Part shown: positions 40,974 to 46,709 of the stretch, piece after piece
Position numbering within the stretch: the stretch's first letter is position 1
Layout of the letters: each line of letters begins with the position of its first letter
Assembly: GCA_944381165.1 (NCBI GenBank)
Contig: CALWKC010000004.1
Location: forward strand, 42,776 to 106,775
Length of the DNA: 64,000 nt
Source: an uncultured Lachnospira sp.
GTDB lineage: Bacteria; Bacillota; Clostridia; Lachnospirales; Lachnospiraceae
Reading direction: 5' to 3'
Notes under the pieces: model-generated
Databases searched by the model: none
Seen by the model: only the letters and a program-made list of their open reading frames with translations
What the model was told of the DNA's origin: nothing
Position numbers and translations under genes: made by a program

Positions 40974-41663
40974 TCAGTTTAAAATTCCTGCATCAATCTC
41001 TGCCATACCCAGAGTAATGTTAAGATTTCCGTTTCTCATACGCAAATGGTCGATAAACTCCTTTTCATCAGCGTTTCTTTTCATAGAAACACTGTAAGTA
41101 AGCTCATACATAGTTCCCATATTTGTTGTCCTTACTCTCCTGAGAGTCGACTGTGTGGTGTATTTTTCAAAAACCTCGTCAAACACATGGCTGTAATTAA
41201 GATTTTCGGGAACTGTCAGCTTAAGCTGCTTAGAACCCGAGCGGTCGTCCCCAAAATGCAGCAGATTAAGCACTACAAGCACTACGAGCATCAAAATCAC
41301 AAACGCGCAGGCAAATGTAACATATCCAAGCCCGCATGCAAGACCTGACGCCATTGCAAAAAATACAACCGCTATATCCTTTGCATTTCCTGGAGCGCTT
41401 CTGAAGCGCACAAGCGCAAATGCACCTGCCATAGAGAAAGCCCTTGCCACGTTGCTGCCGATAAGAAGAATTACAGCCGCCACCACAGCCGGAAGAATTA
41501 CAAGTCCCACGATGAAATTCTTTCCGTACCCGTCCCTGCGGCATATATACATATAAACCGCTCCGATTATAAGTCCTAATATAACAGCCGCCCCGATTGC
41601 TAACATTGATGAGCCAATGCTGATGGTATTATCTGCTGTACCTGTAAAAATTGATTCAAACAT
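40974..41663 (-). CDS. DUF4956 membrane protein
   Basis: 229 aa. Four hydrophobic segments (about 14-38, 50-68, 98-112, 116-138) around the conserved SNVARAFSMAGAFALVRFRS and GNAKDIAVVFFAMASGLACG, then a cytoplasmic C-terminal domain (residues 150-229). This is the DUF4956 family, usually found next to a VTC-domain polyphosphate polymerase and thought to form part of a polyphosphate-related membrane system. The 5' end overlaps the VTC gene by 64 bases in another frame; start supported by GAGGG 9 nt upstream. Confidence 0.88.
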   Translation of the reverse strand: MFESIFTGTADNTISIGSSMLAIGAAVILGLIIGAVYMYICRRDGYGKNFIVGLVILPAVVAAVILLIGSNVARAFSMAGAFALVRFRSAPGNAKDIAVVFFAMASGLACGLGYVTFACAFVILMLVVLVVLNLLHFGDDRSGSKQLKLTVPENLNYSHVFDEVFEKYTTQSTLRRVRTTNMGTMYELTYSVSMKRNADEKEFIDHLRMRNGNLNITLGMAEIDAGILN

Positions 41664-42421
41664 ATTGTCTTACCCTCTCTTTCCGCTTCCTCTGATTTTG
41701 TCCGCGCTGCATAACGCTTATACTCTGTGCCGTACTTTGAAAATGACACCGGATAAATTTTTAATTCTGATATAATTTTTGTAAACCACATCGGAACTGC
41801 TCTGTTTATCTTGATTTCCATAAGATAAATGTCCGGCGGCAGAATTTTTTCCCCGAAGCTTCCCAGCTCAAGCCTCAGGTTATGTCTTCTTGATGTGATA
41901 TTTGTGTCAAATGTAACTCTGAAATCACCTTCATCCTTTTCAAAATATGCCATCCTGTCGTATGACAGATAAACTTTTGGAACAAGACCGTAAAAGCTTT
42001 TAAAATAATCTATCTCTCCCATAACCTGCCTGTTTATTGTTTTGTCACGAACTTCAAGCTCAAGGGAAGAGACAGTACCCCCAAGATACCCATATGCCTT
42101 CTCAAGGCTCATTCCCGTTCTTCTCTTGTTTACTATACCGTCATATTTTTTCTTAATCTCAACAAACACTTCATCCGAAAGCTTCGGCGTGCCATATGCC
42201 CTCAATCTCAGCTTCTCCTTATAAACCGGTTTTTCTATTGAAGAGCGAATCAGCCTGTCATCCCATGTATCATAGTAAATATTGCTGATTTGATAGAATT
42301 CATTATCACGATTGTACAAATCCGGTACCATGTGGCTTTGCATACAATATGTCACAGCCTGATACTGTTCCTTGTCTAGCAGGTATTTCTTTTCACATCT
42401 GTTGAACACTTCAATCGCCAT
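41600..42421 (-). CDS. VTC-domain polyphosphate polymerase-like protein
   Basis: 273 aa. Matches the VTC domain (CYTH-like tunnel fold): FNRCEKKYLLDKEQYQAV at the N-terminus, QISNIYYDTWDDRLIRSSIE, YKEKLRLRAYG, EVFVEIKKKYDGIVNKRRT, SYDRMAYFE and IYLMEIKINRAVPMWFTK, so basic residues of the tunnel (KEKLRLR, K in EIKKK, R in NKRR) and acidic metal ligands are retained. In yeast Vtc4 this domain makes polyphosphate from ATP. Here it would act at the membrane with DUF4956. Activity in this bacterium is inferred. Confidence 0.85.
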   Translation of the reverse strand: MAIEVFNRCEKKYLLDKEQYQAVTYCMQSHMVPDLYNRDNEFYQISNIYYDTWDDRLIRSSIEKPVYKEKLRLRAYGTPKLSDEVFVEIKKKYDGIVNKRRTGMSLEKAYGYLGGTVSSLELEVRDKTINRQVMGEIDYFKSFYGLVPKVYLSYDRMAYFEKDEGDFRVTFDTNITSRRHNLRLELGSFGEKILPPDIYLMEIKINRAVPMWFTKIISELKIYPVSFSKYGTEYKRYAARTKSEEAEREGKTICLNQFLQVQQIIPSALAHQC

Positions 42422-42629: not shown

Positions 42630-43517
42630 TTAATCCTGTCTAACCCGCACGTCCAACTGATTGTACGGAATCTCAATTCCGTTTTCGTCAAATACCTGCT
42701 TGAATTTCTCAAACAGAATAAATTTTGTATCCCAGTACGCCTCCTGGCTTACCCACGCTCTGGTCTCAATCGTCACGCAGCTTGCATCCAGAGATTTAAC
42801 CACAACATTAATCTCCCTGCTCTTATCAACTGAAGGGTAATTCGTCACTATATCTCTAAGAAGCTCCTTTGCCTTAGTCACATCGCTTCCGTAGCTTATT
42901 CCTATCTGCATATCAAGACGGCGGACTCCCTCGGCACCGACATTCACTATATTGGAATTGGAAAGCGTTCCGTTGGGCATCATAATCACGCGGTTATCCG
43001 CTGTTTTAAGCTTTGTATACAGCATATCTATCGAGGACACCGTTCCCTCACAGCTTCCCGAGATAATATAATCCCCCACTTTAAAAGGACGAAAAATCAT
43101 GATAAGAATTCCGCCTGCAAAATTCGAGAGACTTCCCTGAAGAGACATGCTCACAGCCAGCGCCGCGGAGCCGAACACGGCAATAAGCGAAGCAGTCTGA
43201 AATCCCAGAATATCAAGTATCACGAGAAAAATCACGCAATAGCTTCCAATCTTCACAACTGAATTGATGAACTTTATTACACCTACATCAAAGCCTGCGC
43301 GCTCAAGCGCCTTTGAACATATCTTCATAAGCCATTTGATGACTTGCTTGCCAATCTTATAAACCACAACGGCAACGACAATCTGCAGAAGCTTATCGAC
43401 AGACCAGTCCAGCACCTGCGATAACACCTTTTTTATATTATCAGCTGAAAAAAACGCTTCCGCCTCTTTTGTCTTTTCCGAAACAGTGCTCAGAGCCATA
43501 AATATTCTACTGTCCAT
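42630..43517 (-). CDS. mscS: MscS family mechanosensitive channel
   Basis: 295 aa. Three membrane segments; the pore helix with Gly/Ala packing is FGSAALAVSMSLQGSLSNFAGGILIM, followed by FRPFKVGDYIISGSCEGTVSSIDMLYTKLKT, the MscS beta-domain signature. Releases solutes on hypo-osmotic shock. GGAGG lies 6 nt before the ATG inside the tail of the preceding GH13-like gene, which overlaps by 11 bases, so the two are coupled. Confidence 0.94.
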   Translation of the reverse strand: MDSRIFMALSTVSEKTKEAEAFFSADNIKKVLSQVLDWSVDKLLQIVVAVVVYKIGKQVIKWLMKICSKALERAGFDVGVIKFINSVVKIGSYCVIFLVILDILGFQTASLIAVFGSAALAVSMSLQGSLSNFAGGILIMIFRPFKVGDYIISGSCEGTVSSIDMLYTKLKTADNRVIMMPNGTLSNSNIVNVGAEGVRRLDMQIGISYGSDVTKAKELLRDIVTNYPSVDKSREINVVVKSLDASCVTIETRAWVSQEAYWDTKFILFEKFKQVFDENGIEIPYNQLDVRVRQD

Positions 43518-45846
43518 TCTCAGCCTCCATGTCCTTTAGTTCCTCAAGCTTTCTTTTGGCCTCCTCGTCTATTTTAAGACACGCTCTGCGCGCTTCATCA
43601 GCCTTCTTGGCCGCTATTCTTTTAGCCTCCAGCGCCTCCTCAGCCGCAGCCAGGGCAATTTTTTCAGCCTCCTTCGCCTGTCTTGCCCTCTCGTCTGCCT
43701 CCTCCTGCACGCGCTTCGCCTCATCCGCCTGGCGCATGGCTACCTCAAGAGCCTCCTTTGCCTCTCTTTTAATTCGCATCTTTTCAAGCTCAATCTCCGT
43801 GTACGGTGTGAATGAATATACGGATACACCCAGCGGTTTCAAATCCACCTTGACAGAGTTATCTCTCCCGTTCCATGCGGTGTCATTTGAACAGTACTCT
43901 CTGTTATCATCAAGCAAATCCCTGTATTTTCCTGCAAAAGGTACTCCCAGGGTAAACTGCCTTCTCTCAACAGGCGTAAAATTTATCGCCGCCAAAATAA
44001 TCCCGCCGTCCTCAGCTCTTCTCAGCATGGCAAAAACGGTCTCCTCGACAGACACGTCATCAATCCACTCAAACCCCTGCGGAGCATCATCAAGCTCGTA
44101 CATTGCAGGATTTTCCATATAAATACTGTTCATTGTCCTTACAAAGTCCGGTACAGCCATACATTCTCTGATATTGAGAAGCTTTTTTCCCGGGTGCATA
44201 TACATATAAGCAATAGCTGTCTGAATATGACGTATCGTATCATCCGGATTGTCAGTCTTAGGTACAATATCCGACAGAAGTCCAAGCTGCCAGCCGTATC
44301 CGTTTCTTGAAAATTCCACCATAAATCTTTCACTGTACTGATACAGCAGGCTGTATGTAAGCCTTCCGTATAACCCTTTTCTGAACAGCGGGTCAGTTCC
44401 AATAAACGAAATAAACTCTTTCTTCCAACCGTCATTCCATTTATAGTCAAATCCCAGTCCGTCCTCTGTAAGCTTCCCTGTGACAAGAGGCCATGCGCTT
44501 GTCTCCTCCGCAATCATAAGAGGCGGATTTTTTCGTGTATCAAACATTGTGCGCACGCCGCGTATAAAATCTATTGCCGCAAGATTTTCCTTTCCTCCGT
44601 AAATATTAGGAATCCACTGGCCTGCGTCTCTTCCGTAATCCAGATAAAGTATTGATGCAACCTCGCTGAACTTAAAACCGTCAACATGGTATTCCTCAAG
44701 CCAGTATCTCAGATTAGAATACAGAAAGCTTCTGACCTCAGGTTTTGAGAAATCAAACGTAGCGGCATTATATTCAGGGTGGTTGTCCAGTCTTACCGTT
44801 CCCGTGTCATACAGATGCGTTCCGTCAAAATACACAAGGCTGTATGCCTCCTGGCTCATAAACGCGCCGTTCCAGTCCAGTATAACACCTATGTTTCTGT
44901 TGTGAAGCTCATCGATAAAGGTCTTTAACCTGTCGCTTCCAACCTTTGGATTTACACCGTAAAAATTAATAGTCTGCGCGTTCGCTCCCTCAAGCACCGG
45001 GCAAACATTCATAATTTCCGCATAGTTAAATCTCATCTCCGCAATTTTATCCGGCAGCTTATCATCCGTCAAATCAAGAATATCAACCTCACACACCGAC
45101 ATAGGCATACTGTTGTTATTTTCATGCTTCCATTTTCCGTCAGTCCACGTAAACTCGCCGTACTTTTTGTCGTAATCGGCAACCGATGCATAGTACACAT
45201 CATTCACAACACCCGTGCAGTACGGGTCCGATTTTTTGCTTATCTGACCGTCCTTCAGCTTAACTTCATAGCAATACGGCGTGTCAGGCTCAAGCCCCGG
45301 AATAAATATAGTAAATATACCTGTTTCGCTGCATTTCTGCATCTGATAAATTCTTCCGTCCCAGTTATTGAAATCACCCACAACGCTCACTCTTCTGGCA
45401 TTCGGCGCCCACACCGCAAAGCTCATTCCGTCAACGCCCTTTATACTGACTGCGTGACTTCCCATATACCTGTATGCATCCTGCGCCGTTCCCGCAAGAA
45501 ACTTTTTCATATCCTGCTCTCGTATGTTGCTGTCGAACGAATAGGCATCATATATCTCGCTCTTTTTTCCTTTTATATCCTCTATGATAAGCTTGTACGA
45601 AAACTTTTTCTTAACAGGTATAAATGCGGCAAAAAAACCTGACTCATCCATTTTCTCCATTGGATACGGAGTTTTTCTTCCCTCGGCACGCACTTCTATC
45701 TCAACAGCATCAGGTCTGAACACCTGTATAAGAGTCCCGTCCTTGCACTGATGCGCGCCCAGAACAGATTTCGGTGCATCACACTCCGAATATACAATTC
45801 CCTCTATCTCAGGCCAATTCATTAAATCATATAATCTTTTCCCCAT
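43507..45846 (-). CDS. GH13 branching-enzyme-like protein with lost catalytic residues and coiled-coil tail
   Basis: 779 aa. CBM48 at about 120-225 (FAVWAPNARRVSVVGDFNNWDG); (beta/alpha)8 part at about 245-600, clearly GlgB-type (EVASILYLDYGRDAGQWIPN). Yet the active site has gone: region I has DWNGAF (324-329) for VPAHF; region II is DGFKFSEV (389-396), with Ser394 in place of the nucleophile Asp and Lys for Arg; region IV is SRNGYG (513-518) for SHDEV; only region III AEE (446-448) remains. Residues 685-779 are a charged coiled coil of Lys/Glu/Ala heptads. Predicted pseudoenzyme, perhaps a glycogen-binding scaffold; overlaps mscS. Confidence 0.85.
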   Translation of the reverse strand: MGKRLYDLMNWPEIEGIVYSECDAPKSVLGAHQCKDGTLIQVFRPDAVEIEVRAEGRKTPYPMEKMDESGFFAAFIPVKKKFSYKLIIEDIKGKKSEIYDAYSFDSNIREQDMKKFLAGTAQDAYRYMGSHAVSIKGVDGMSFAVWAPNARRVSVVGDFNNWDGRIYQMQKCSETGIFTIFIPGLEPDTPYCYEVKLKDGQISKKSDPYCTGVVNDVYYASVADYDKKYGEFTWTDGKWKHENNNSMPMSVCEVDILDLTDDKLPDKIAEMRFNYAEIMNVCPVLEGANAQTINFYGVNPKVGSDRLKTFIDELHNRNIGVILDWNGAFMSQEAYSLVYFDGTHLYDTGTVRLDNHPEYNAATFDFSKPEVRSFLYSNLRYWLEEYHVDGFKFSEVASILYLDYGRDAGQWIPNIYGGKENLAAIDFIRGVRTMFDTRKNPPLMIAEETSAWPLVTGKLTEDGLGFDYKWNDGWKKEFISFIGTDPLFRKGLYGRLTYSLLYQYSERFMVEFSRNGYGWQLGLLSDIVPKTDNPDDTIRHIQTAIAYMYMHPGKKLLNIRECMAVPDFVRTMNSIYMENPAMYELDDAPQGFEWIDDVSVEETVFAMLRRAEDGGIILAAINFTPVERRQFTLGVPFAGKYRDLLDDNREYCSNDTAWNGRDNSVKVDLKPLGVSVYSFTPYTEIELEKMRIKREAKEALEVAMRQADEAKRVQEEADERARQAKEAEKIALAAAEEALEAKRIAAKKADEARRACLKIDEEAKRKLEELKDMEAENGQ

Positions 45847-45860
45847 AACAGCCTCCGTCT

Positions 45861-46709
45861 TTAAATATTATTTTCCACCCACGTCTTAAAAAGTTCTGTC
45901 CACGCATATACCTCCGGCTGGAAATGCGTTCCGTCCTTTGTGTCAGTCTCCTTAGTTCCGAGTCCAAGCCCGTGATTTCCCGAAGGAAATATATGCAGTT
46001 CAAAAGGAACTCCCGCGTTCCTTAACGCCTCCGCAAACAGCAGGGAATTTTCAACCGGCACGCTTCCGTCAGTAAAGGTATGCCACAGAAATGTTTTCGG
46101 CGTAGACGGGCTTACGCGCTTTTCAAGCGACACTGACGAAACCAGCTCATCATATCTTTCTCCCAGAAGTCTCTCAAAAGACTTTCTGTGCGCCTTATCC
46201 CCGGACGTAAGCACAGAATATCCAAGCATAAGACCGTTCGGACGCACCTCATCCGGCGTGCATTGAAGACCGTTCTCCAGAAAATCTTTTAGCTCCGGCT
46301 GGTCGTACATTGTAGCGAGACTTGCAGCGACATGTCCTCCTGCGGAAAAGCCTGCAATTATTATTTTGTCCGCATCAACGTCCCATTTTTCAGCATTTTT
46401 TCTCACATAGTCAACCGTATAAGCCGCCTCATACAAGGCGCACGGAAACTCGTCGGGCATGAGGCTGTACCTTAAAACAACCGCATTATAGCCGAAATCA
46501 AGCATTTTTAACGCGACAGCCTCCCCCTCTCTCGGAGAATGGTGCTCGTATCCTCCTCCCGGACAGATTATCACAAGCGGTCTTTTGAACTTATTCTGAT
46601 AATCGGGATACATTTCTTTTATATAAGTCGTAATTGTTGCCTTTGCACCGCTGTGCCGTATTCCTAATCTTCCGTAATCAATATCAATCTCTGTCGTCTC
46701 ATGTATCAT
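45861..46709 (-). CDS. Alpha/beta-hydrolase esterase (acetyl-xylan esterase/lipase type)
   Basis: 282 aa. Oxyanion motif LVIICPGGGYEHHSPREGE, nucleophile Ser in IIAGFSAGGHVAASL, acid Asp in FLWHTFTDGSVPVENS and His in IFPSGNHGLGLG. No signal peptide, so cytoplasmic. This fits the BD-FAE/Aes-like esterases of gut Lachnospiraceae that deacetylate imported carbohydrate. The exact substrate cannot be told from the sequence. Long 5' region (46710-47044) with an inverted repeat and hairpins. Confidence 0.88.
   Translation of the reverse strand: MIHETTEIDIDYGRLGIRHSGAKATITTYIKEMYPDYQNKFKRPLVIICPGGGYEHHSPREGEAVALKMLDFGYNAVVLRYSLMPDEFPCALYEAAYTVDYVRKNAEKWDVDADKIIIAGFSAGGHVAASLATMYDQPELKDFLENGLQCTPDEVRPNGLMLGYSVLTSGDKAHRKSFERLLGERYDELVSSVSLEKRVSPSTPKTFLWHTFTDGSVPVENSLLFAEALRNAGVPFELHIFPSGNHGLGLGTKETDTKDGTHFQPEVYAWTELFKTWVENNI

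Follow-up and report, generated by a model that had tools for sequence, protein, structure and literature searches.

Blautia obeum and Dorea longicatena are members of the Lachnospiraceae. Gut species such as these possess several homologues of glgB, the gene for the glycogen-branching enzyme (PMC10395257), and two architectures of the enzyme are known, type 1 with N1 and CBM48 domains and type 2 with CBM48 only (PMC6339891). Dead relatives of alpha-glucan enzymes have been described in plants, where MKIP1, an inactive branching enzyme, binds maturase K through a new Lys/Glu-rich charged insert (PMC13172542) and ISA2, an inactive isoamylase, is the partner of the active ISA1 in a complex (PMC12510319). 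In some Chlamydiae, GlgA is reported to be fused to a GlgB whose branching domain is inactive (PMC11046441), which gives a bacterial precedent for the inactivation of such a domain. Among the titles and abstract openings listed by literature searches, neither an inactive bacterial GlgB paralogue nor a glgB-mscS pair was found. Here, such a pair is described in a stretch of 64,000 nucleotides (the window) from an uncultured Lachnospira species (assembly GCA_944381165.1, contig CALWKC010000004.1, positions 42,776 to 106,775), in which glgB2, coding for a type 1 branching-enzyme paralogue with a dead active site, is followed by the channel gene mscS.

The gene occupies the interval given in a preliminary description of this DNA, which left the strand unstated; it lies on the minus strand. 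Its features, in window coordinates, are as follows:

43507..45846, minus strand: glgB2 (779 amino acids), a branching-enzyme paralogue of N1 type that is linked to mscS and has a dead active site
45541..45813, minus strand: GlgB_N (N1) domain, residues 12-102, the best-conserved domain in the genus (Pfam)
45220..45462, minus strand: CBM48, residues 129-209, with Trp162 retained and the usual Lys at 192 replaced by Cys (Pfam)
44848..44886, minus strand: region I, residues 321-333, VILDWNGAFMSQE, with His replaced by Phe329 (PDB alignment)
44659..44685, minus strand: region II, residues 388-396, with Ser394 at the position of the nucleophile Asp (codon 44665-44667)
44497..44517, minus strand: region III, residues 444-450, with the general acid/base Glu447 retained
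44290..44322, minus strand: region IV, residues 509-519, with His replaced by Arg514 and Asp by Asn515
44152..44178, minus strand: site of a 23-residue deletion at the junction of barrel and C-domain, around residues 557-565
43813..44067, minus strand: Alpha-amylase_C domain, residues 594-678 (Pfam)
43510..43800, minus strand: charged heptad-periodic tail of coiled-coil type, about residues 683-779

GlgB_N, CBM48, the Alpha-amylase barrel and the C-domain stand in the order of bacterial type 1 GlgBs and each exceeds its Pfam cut-off, the barrel barely (24 bits against 22), which identifies the product as a GlgB homologue. It aligns with solved bacterial GlgBs in phmmer searches (3k1d, 6.6e-109; 5gqz, 2.1e-107), shares about 34-45% identity with intact relatives of the same long form over the aligned parts, and is placed by trees within their group. 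The preliminary description had seen a GlgB homologue with changed catalytic regions and had proposed an alignment to GlgB structures as a check; sequence alignment to 3k1d and 5gqz bears this out. Region I reads DWNGAFM against DWVPAHF, with Asp324 retained and Phe329 at His, and region II reads DGFKFSEVAS against DGLRVDAVAS, with Lys392 at Arg and Ser, not Asp, at the nucleophile position (Ser394). Region III (AEETSAW) keeps Glu447 opposite the Glu of AEES, and region IV reads SRNGYG against SHDEVV, with Arg514 at His and Asn515 at the Asp of SHDE. The changes therefore affect two of the three residues of the triad, the two usual histidines and the Arg of region II, so that neither the Asp/Glu/Asp triad nor the histidines of regions I and IV expected of a GlgB enzyme are present. 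We take the aligned columns to be those of the GH13 nucleophile, acid/base and stabiliser. This agrees with a review that places the catalytic Asp, Glu and Asp on strands 4, 5 and 7 (PMC11046441). Unlike intact type 1 enzymes, GlgB2 combines these losses with a 23-residue deletion and a coiled-coil tail, and it scores below the three best NCBIfam equivalog cut-offs for GlgB (TIGR01515, 446.8 against 463.95; NF003811, 467.7 against 741; NF008967, 435.8 against 577), all of which are passed by the short GlgB of the same genome and by an intact long relative. As an enzyme homologue without the conserved catalytic motifs, GlgB2 qualifies as a pseudoenzyme, and the prediction that it is catalytically dead is well supported by sequence.

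Within the genus, a long copy is present in 22 of 22 genomes, each with mscS directly downstream, and a separate short GlgB in 21, the exception (G303) being 84% complete. The region-I His is Tyr or Phe in all 22 long copies (G304, with Tyr, was read by eye and the other 21 by script). The nucleophile Asp is gone in seven, replaced by Ser in the window and G318, by Lys in G315, G312 and G316 and by Thr in G008 and G304. Full-length frames are found in 21 of the 22 copies; the frame of the remaining one (G309, locus L143) is broken by a run of N in the assembly, and this copy was counted apart. The genus copies form a graded series from half-altered to dead.

A wider family search covered 299 genomes, nearly all of different genera, and gave a match in 295; the matches listed are ranked by likeness to the window protein, and counts drawn from them are not family-wide rates. 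From 140 stretches around listed matches, together with the genus and other loci, 278 GlgB-like open reading frames (ORFs) were collected and reduced to 243 distinct copies by dropping identical copies, ORFs below 560 amino acids and one ORF sharing its C-terminal part. Four copies with unrelated long starts were moved to the short group and still stand among the intact long copies in the domain-conservation comparison below. A copy was called altered on any change among seven scored residues. By this measure the 175 long copies comprise 112 intact and 63 altered ones, the triad being broken in 53 of the latter, and the 68 short-group copies comprise 67 intact ones, none altered, and a fragment of the N-broken G309 gene (L143).

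The mscS-linked long GlgB is a second paralogue across the Lachnospiraceae. Directly downstream of the long copies, mscS is found in 127 of 175, namely 83 of 112 intact and 44 of 63 altered; the 19 altered and 29 intact copies not scored as linked include some at contig ends. It follows none of the 67 intact short-group copies, L143 alone in that group having mscS. The survey of GH13-mscS neighbourhoods that the preliminary description had called for thus finds the pair in both states. Its view of the dead gene as coupled to MscS holds as gene order and fails as a trait of the dead form, since the frequency of mscS beside intact copies makes the pair ancestral. Adjacency to mscS was accordingly rejected as a mark of the dead form: the link is real but ancestral, and it proves neither an osmotic role nor the glycogen sensing under osmotic control that the preliminary description had put forward as a possibility.

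The catalytic columns and the tail were excluded from the alignments behind the trees, and changes of state were counted without direction; they are read as losses because regaining several catalytic residues is implausible. Five changes are counted on a FastTree tree of 183 rows, ten on a quick mixture-model tree of 97 rows (9 of the 63 altered rows left out as near-duplicates, 39 intact rows used) and seven on a careful tree of 36 rows, which were picked after the larger trees were known so as to span separate lineages. Forcing the 14 altered rows of the 36-row set into one clade costs 249 log-likelihood units (approximately unbiased test, p-AU 1.84e-6), by which a single origin of all altered copies is rejected. 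Altered copies stand beside intact ones with good support in three pairs, L221 with L225 (98/92), L099 with L184 (98/84) and L009 with L234 (93/94), and the four genus rows of this set form one clade (100/100). On the large trees, support for the largest altered group is low (13 and 24), and long branches may be what unites its members; root-to-tip paths are longer in altered than in intact copies (mean 2.14 against 1.21), and long-branch attraction may hide further losses or misplace rows. As far as sequences can tell, catalysis has been lost more than once among the long copies.

The gene has nevertheless been kept under constraint. Between the window and its relative at locus L005, the ratio of nonsynonymous to synonymous substitution rates (dN/dS) is 0.073 for the whole of glgB2, which places it under selection as expected of a retained pseudoenzyme, and 0.055, 0.057, 0.059, 0.10 and 0.105 for N1, CBM48, barrel, C-domain and tail, respectively. 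For the same species pair the ratio is 0.021 in mscS and 0.029 in the short GlgB; the dead gene is constrained, but less than these two. Four other genus pairs (dS 0.29-0.84) give whole-gene values of 0.058-0.092 and the distant pair L137/L136 gives 0.158 at a dS of 1.7. Pairs outside the genus give 0.17, 0.085 and 0.138 at dS 0.9, 1.1 and 2.9, and one more is saturated. Purifying selection in every domain between close species implies that the dead gene is used, and a decaying pseudogene is rejected on these ratios and on the full frames. Conservation within the genus is highest in N1 (0.68, against 0.57-0.59 in the other domains, barrel 0.59); in intact long copies the barrel is highest (0.79) and N1 lowest (0.52), and no domain stands out in the altered copies from outside the genus, where all four score 0.55-0.59. 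As the groups differ in breadth, only the order of domains within each group is comparable.

The barrel-to-C-domain segment (545-590) spans 45 residues in GlgB2. Its usual length, shared by 66 of the 68 short copies and 100 of the 112 intact long ones, is 68 residues, 23 more than in GlgB2; eight further intact long copies have 69, and L085, a copy classed as intact that carries the same deletion, has 45. This deletion had gone unmentioned in the preliminary description, which had recognised a charged C-terminal coiled coil of about 95 residues. The latter is confirmed as a 95-residue heptad-periodic tail with no Pro, one Gly, 23% Ala and 22% Glu, in which 3.5 is the strongest of ten hydrophobic periods tried; its assignment as a coiled coil comes from this periodicity and is well supported at the level of a prediction. 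Among 18 tails listed, the strongest period is 3.5 in 11, 3.6 in two and 2.0 in five, and the tails of the 15 genus members listed range from 88 to 107 residues. Helix-type charged tails of at least 60 residues are found in 28 of 63 altered copies (many of them from this one genus), nine of 112 intact long copies and none of 68 in the short group. Intact long GlgBs (e.g., L115, 8361-11102) often end in Lys/Ala-rich, histone-H1-like low-complexity tails, which are of a different make from the helix-type tails and are missing from nearly all short-group copies. On the plus strand, a Ser/Ala-rich ORF of 197 amino acids (43529-44122) lies opposite the codons of the coiled coil and is unlikely to be a gene.

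Branching activity appears to be provided elsewhere in these genomes. The window genome encodes a second GlgB of 654 amino acids, without the long N-terminus and with intact motifs, on contig C29, which also carries glgP; glgA lies on C26, and C15 holds a GlgD match whose neighbouring homologue scores just under the GlgD cut-off. Each of the 24 genomes examined that carry altered long copies also has a separate GlgB-like match at least 57% identical to this short GlgB (in G010 the second GlgB match consists of two pieces, 62% and 54%), and all 19 second GlgBs read from those genomes are intact. The short GlgB had not been noted in the preliminary description; in the stretch read at locus L004 (1760-9292), its gene lies near a flagellin-like gene, by eye, and in no visible glg operon.

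The sequences document the loss of catalytic residues, its occurrence more than once, purifying selection on the gene and a second, intact GlgB. Repeated catalytic loss at one syntenic orthologue that has been kept and constrained argues for a second role in the active ancestor, in the way proposed for the fungal Ssd1/Dis3L2 pseudonucleases, an unrelated family of RNA-binding proteins with repeated catalytic loss, conserved N-terminal domains and a proposed ancestral second function (PMC8097288). Under the reading that we favour, the N1- and CBM48-bearing branching enzyme beside mscS would already have had a second, catalysis-independent role. With another GlgB doing the branching in most Lachnospiraceae, catalysis would have become dispensable at the glgB2 locus and been lost several times, while the second role kept the gene, of which N1, the dead barrel and the coiled-coil tail are still under selection in the genus. 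GlgB2 would associate with glycogen as a scaffold or partner subunit that lacks catalysis of its own, oligomerises through its tail and tunes or places active glycogen enzymes; inactivity is predicted, and glucan binding, oligomerisation and partners are putative. This reading is preferred because the paralogue, the pathway and a CBM48 remain, and we give it about an even chance of being right.

By this account, bacteria would have their own counterpart to MKIP1 and ISA2. Like MKIP1 and the class III branching enzymes, GlgB2 combines a branching-enzyme fold, inactive to judge by its residues, with the loss of two triad Asp and a Lys/Glu-rich added segment; in MKIP1, however, the segment is inserted after the carbohydrate-binding module rather than forming a C-terminal coil, the setting is plastid splicing, and the likeness is one of description (PMC13172542). 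ISA2 is likewise an inactive alpha-glucan enzyme retained alongside an active paralogue, but it is an isoamylase whose complex with ISA1 is known (PMC12510319), whereas any partner of GlgB2 is putative. GlgD, the regulatory subunit of GlgC, is similarly a regulatory relative of a glycogen-pathway enzyme, with a match in this genome, though from another enzyme family (PMC10395257). Repeated loss combined with retention points to an undescribed non-catalytic role of GlgB, which can be tested in genomes where this one locus holds an active, a half-altered or a dead version. Furthermore, branching enzymes are annotated automatically as glycogen enzymes, and dead copies could mislead metabolic models of gut bacteria; among 143 long copies, made up of the window's own and those of the family sample, 40 are altered, 38 of them with a broken triad, although that sample was ranked by similarity to the window protein and gives no family-wide rate.

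Several observations weigh against the favoured reading. The triad is unbroken in 10 of the 63 altered copies and kept in 8 of the 20 genus copies tabulated (G304 and the N-broken G309 being outside the table); seven of those eight differ from intact copies only at the region-I His among the residues scored, and some of the triad-keeping genus copies may be active. A second GlgB is also present in most intact comparison genomes, so that redundancy would permit catalytic loss without explaining where it happened. No other glg gene found is adjacent to glgB2, and its link to glycogen is suggested by homology alone. Lastly, CBM48 itself has changed: Trp162, which the window protein retains, is found in 13 of 20 genus copies and is Tyr in the other seven, and the Lys, present in 111 of 116 intact copies and 28 of 43 altered copies outside the genus, persists in one of 20 genus copies (Cys192 in the window), which makes glucan binding in the genus less likely.

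The loss of these CBM48 residues, with the Lys gone from 19 of 20 genus copies, speaks for recruitment to a job outside glycogen metabolism, as in MKIP1, where the CBM48 tryptophans are dispensable and the loss of triad Asp residues likewise accompanied the gain of a Lys/Glu-rich segment (PMC13172542). No partner is known, however, and losses in several lineages are more readily explained by a role inherited from their common ancestor than by a single recent recruitment; this alternative is doubtful.

In view of the mscS pairing, a connection to the channel also has to be considered. The neighbouring features are:

42630..43517, minus strand: mscS, the sole PF00924 match in the genome
43524..43528, minus strand: GGAGG, likely ribosome-binding site of mscS, inside the tail codons
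42540..42572, minus strand: terminator-like hairpin and T-run 3' of mscS
45861..46709, minus strand: BD-FAE-type esterase gene, 14 nt upstream of glgB2

The mscS product matches PF00924, PF21082, PF21088 and PF05552 in Pfam, as expected of an MscS channel. In the first version of such a link, GlgB2 would be a partner or sensor that responds to the load of glycogen or sugar and uses its tail to tether or tune the channel, in active and dead forms alike. The pairing throughout the genus and in most long copies, with none in the intact short group, is consistent with this, as is the fact that mscS is the sole MscS-domain gene of the genome in a pair closed by a terminator-like site. The support is gene adjacency alone, however, and serC, serA and DUF1015 genes nearby are also widely conserved with no known glycogen link; moreover, tails differ greatly among lineages, and the unlinked copies of both states have to be accommodated. 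We consider this version unlikely. A slimmer prospect still is that the long Lachnospiraceae GlgB was bifunctional, its old job being to link the glycogen store to MscS as a sensor of carbon store or turgor; as only the sensor job would need the locus, several lineages would have shed the enzyme and kept the sensor.

The preliminary description had also noted that the glgB2 stop overlaps mscS and that the ribosome-binding site of the latter lies within glgB2. Both points are correct: the overlap is 11 nt (ATGGACAGTAG) and GGAGG stands 6 nt 5' of the mscS ATG, with a second in-frame ATG 18 nt downstream as a possible alternative start. This arrangement would suit a relict whose main remaining use is to serve mscS as a leader in transcription or translation. 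That explanation is very improbable, as it is weakened by purifying selection in all five domains compared, the barrel included, by full-length frames in nearly all genus copies and by the absence of the overlap at 18 of the 20 other genus loci read, the exceptions being the 97%-identical relative G318 (same 11 nt) and the N-broken G309. Equally improbable is residual or mechanistically altered action on glucans, for which the retained Glu447 and Asp324 and the whole triad in 8 of 20 genus relatives could be cited, since the window copy lacks the nucleophile and stabilising Asp residues, the two His and a segment of 23 residues near the end of the barrel, and restoring the triad of MKIP1 gave no activity (PMC13172542).

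The esterase gene and glgB2 probably share one transcript; the former is found in the same place at 19 of the 20 other genus loci, the twentieth (L292) having no upstream sequence. Further upstream, ilvB, serC, serA and DUF1015 genes are often present beside long copies of both states (ilvB, serC and serA were read from translations, not by family search). Beyond mscS and past the terminator-like hairpin, a VTC-domain gene and a DUF4956 gene follow (40974-42421, minus strand), the VTC gene being in the same place at 15 of the 20 other genus loci, with several others short of sequence. Rfam at gathering thresholds gives no RNA element in the window. Consensus promoter matches number 18, against 15.2 (standard deviation 4.4) in shuffled sequence, and terminators 12, against 6.1 (standard deviation 3.1).

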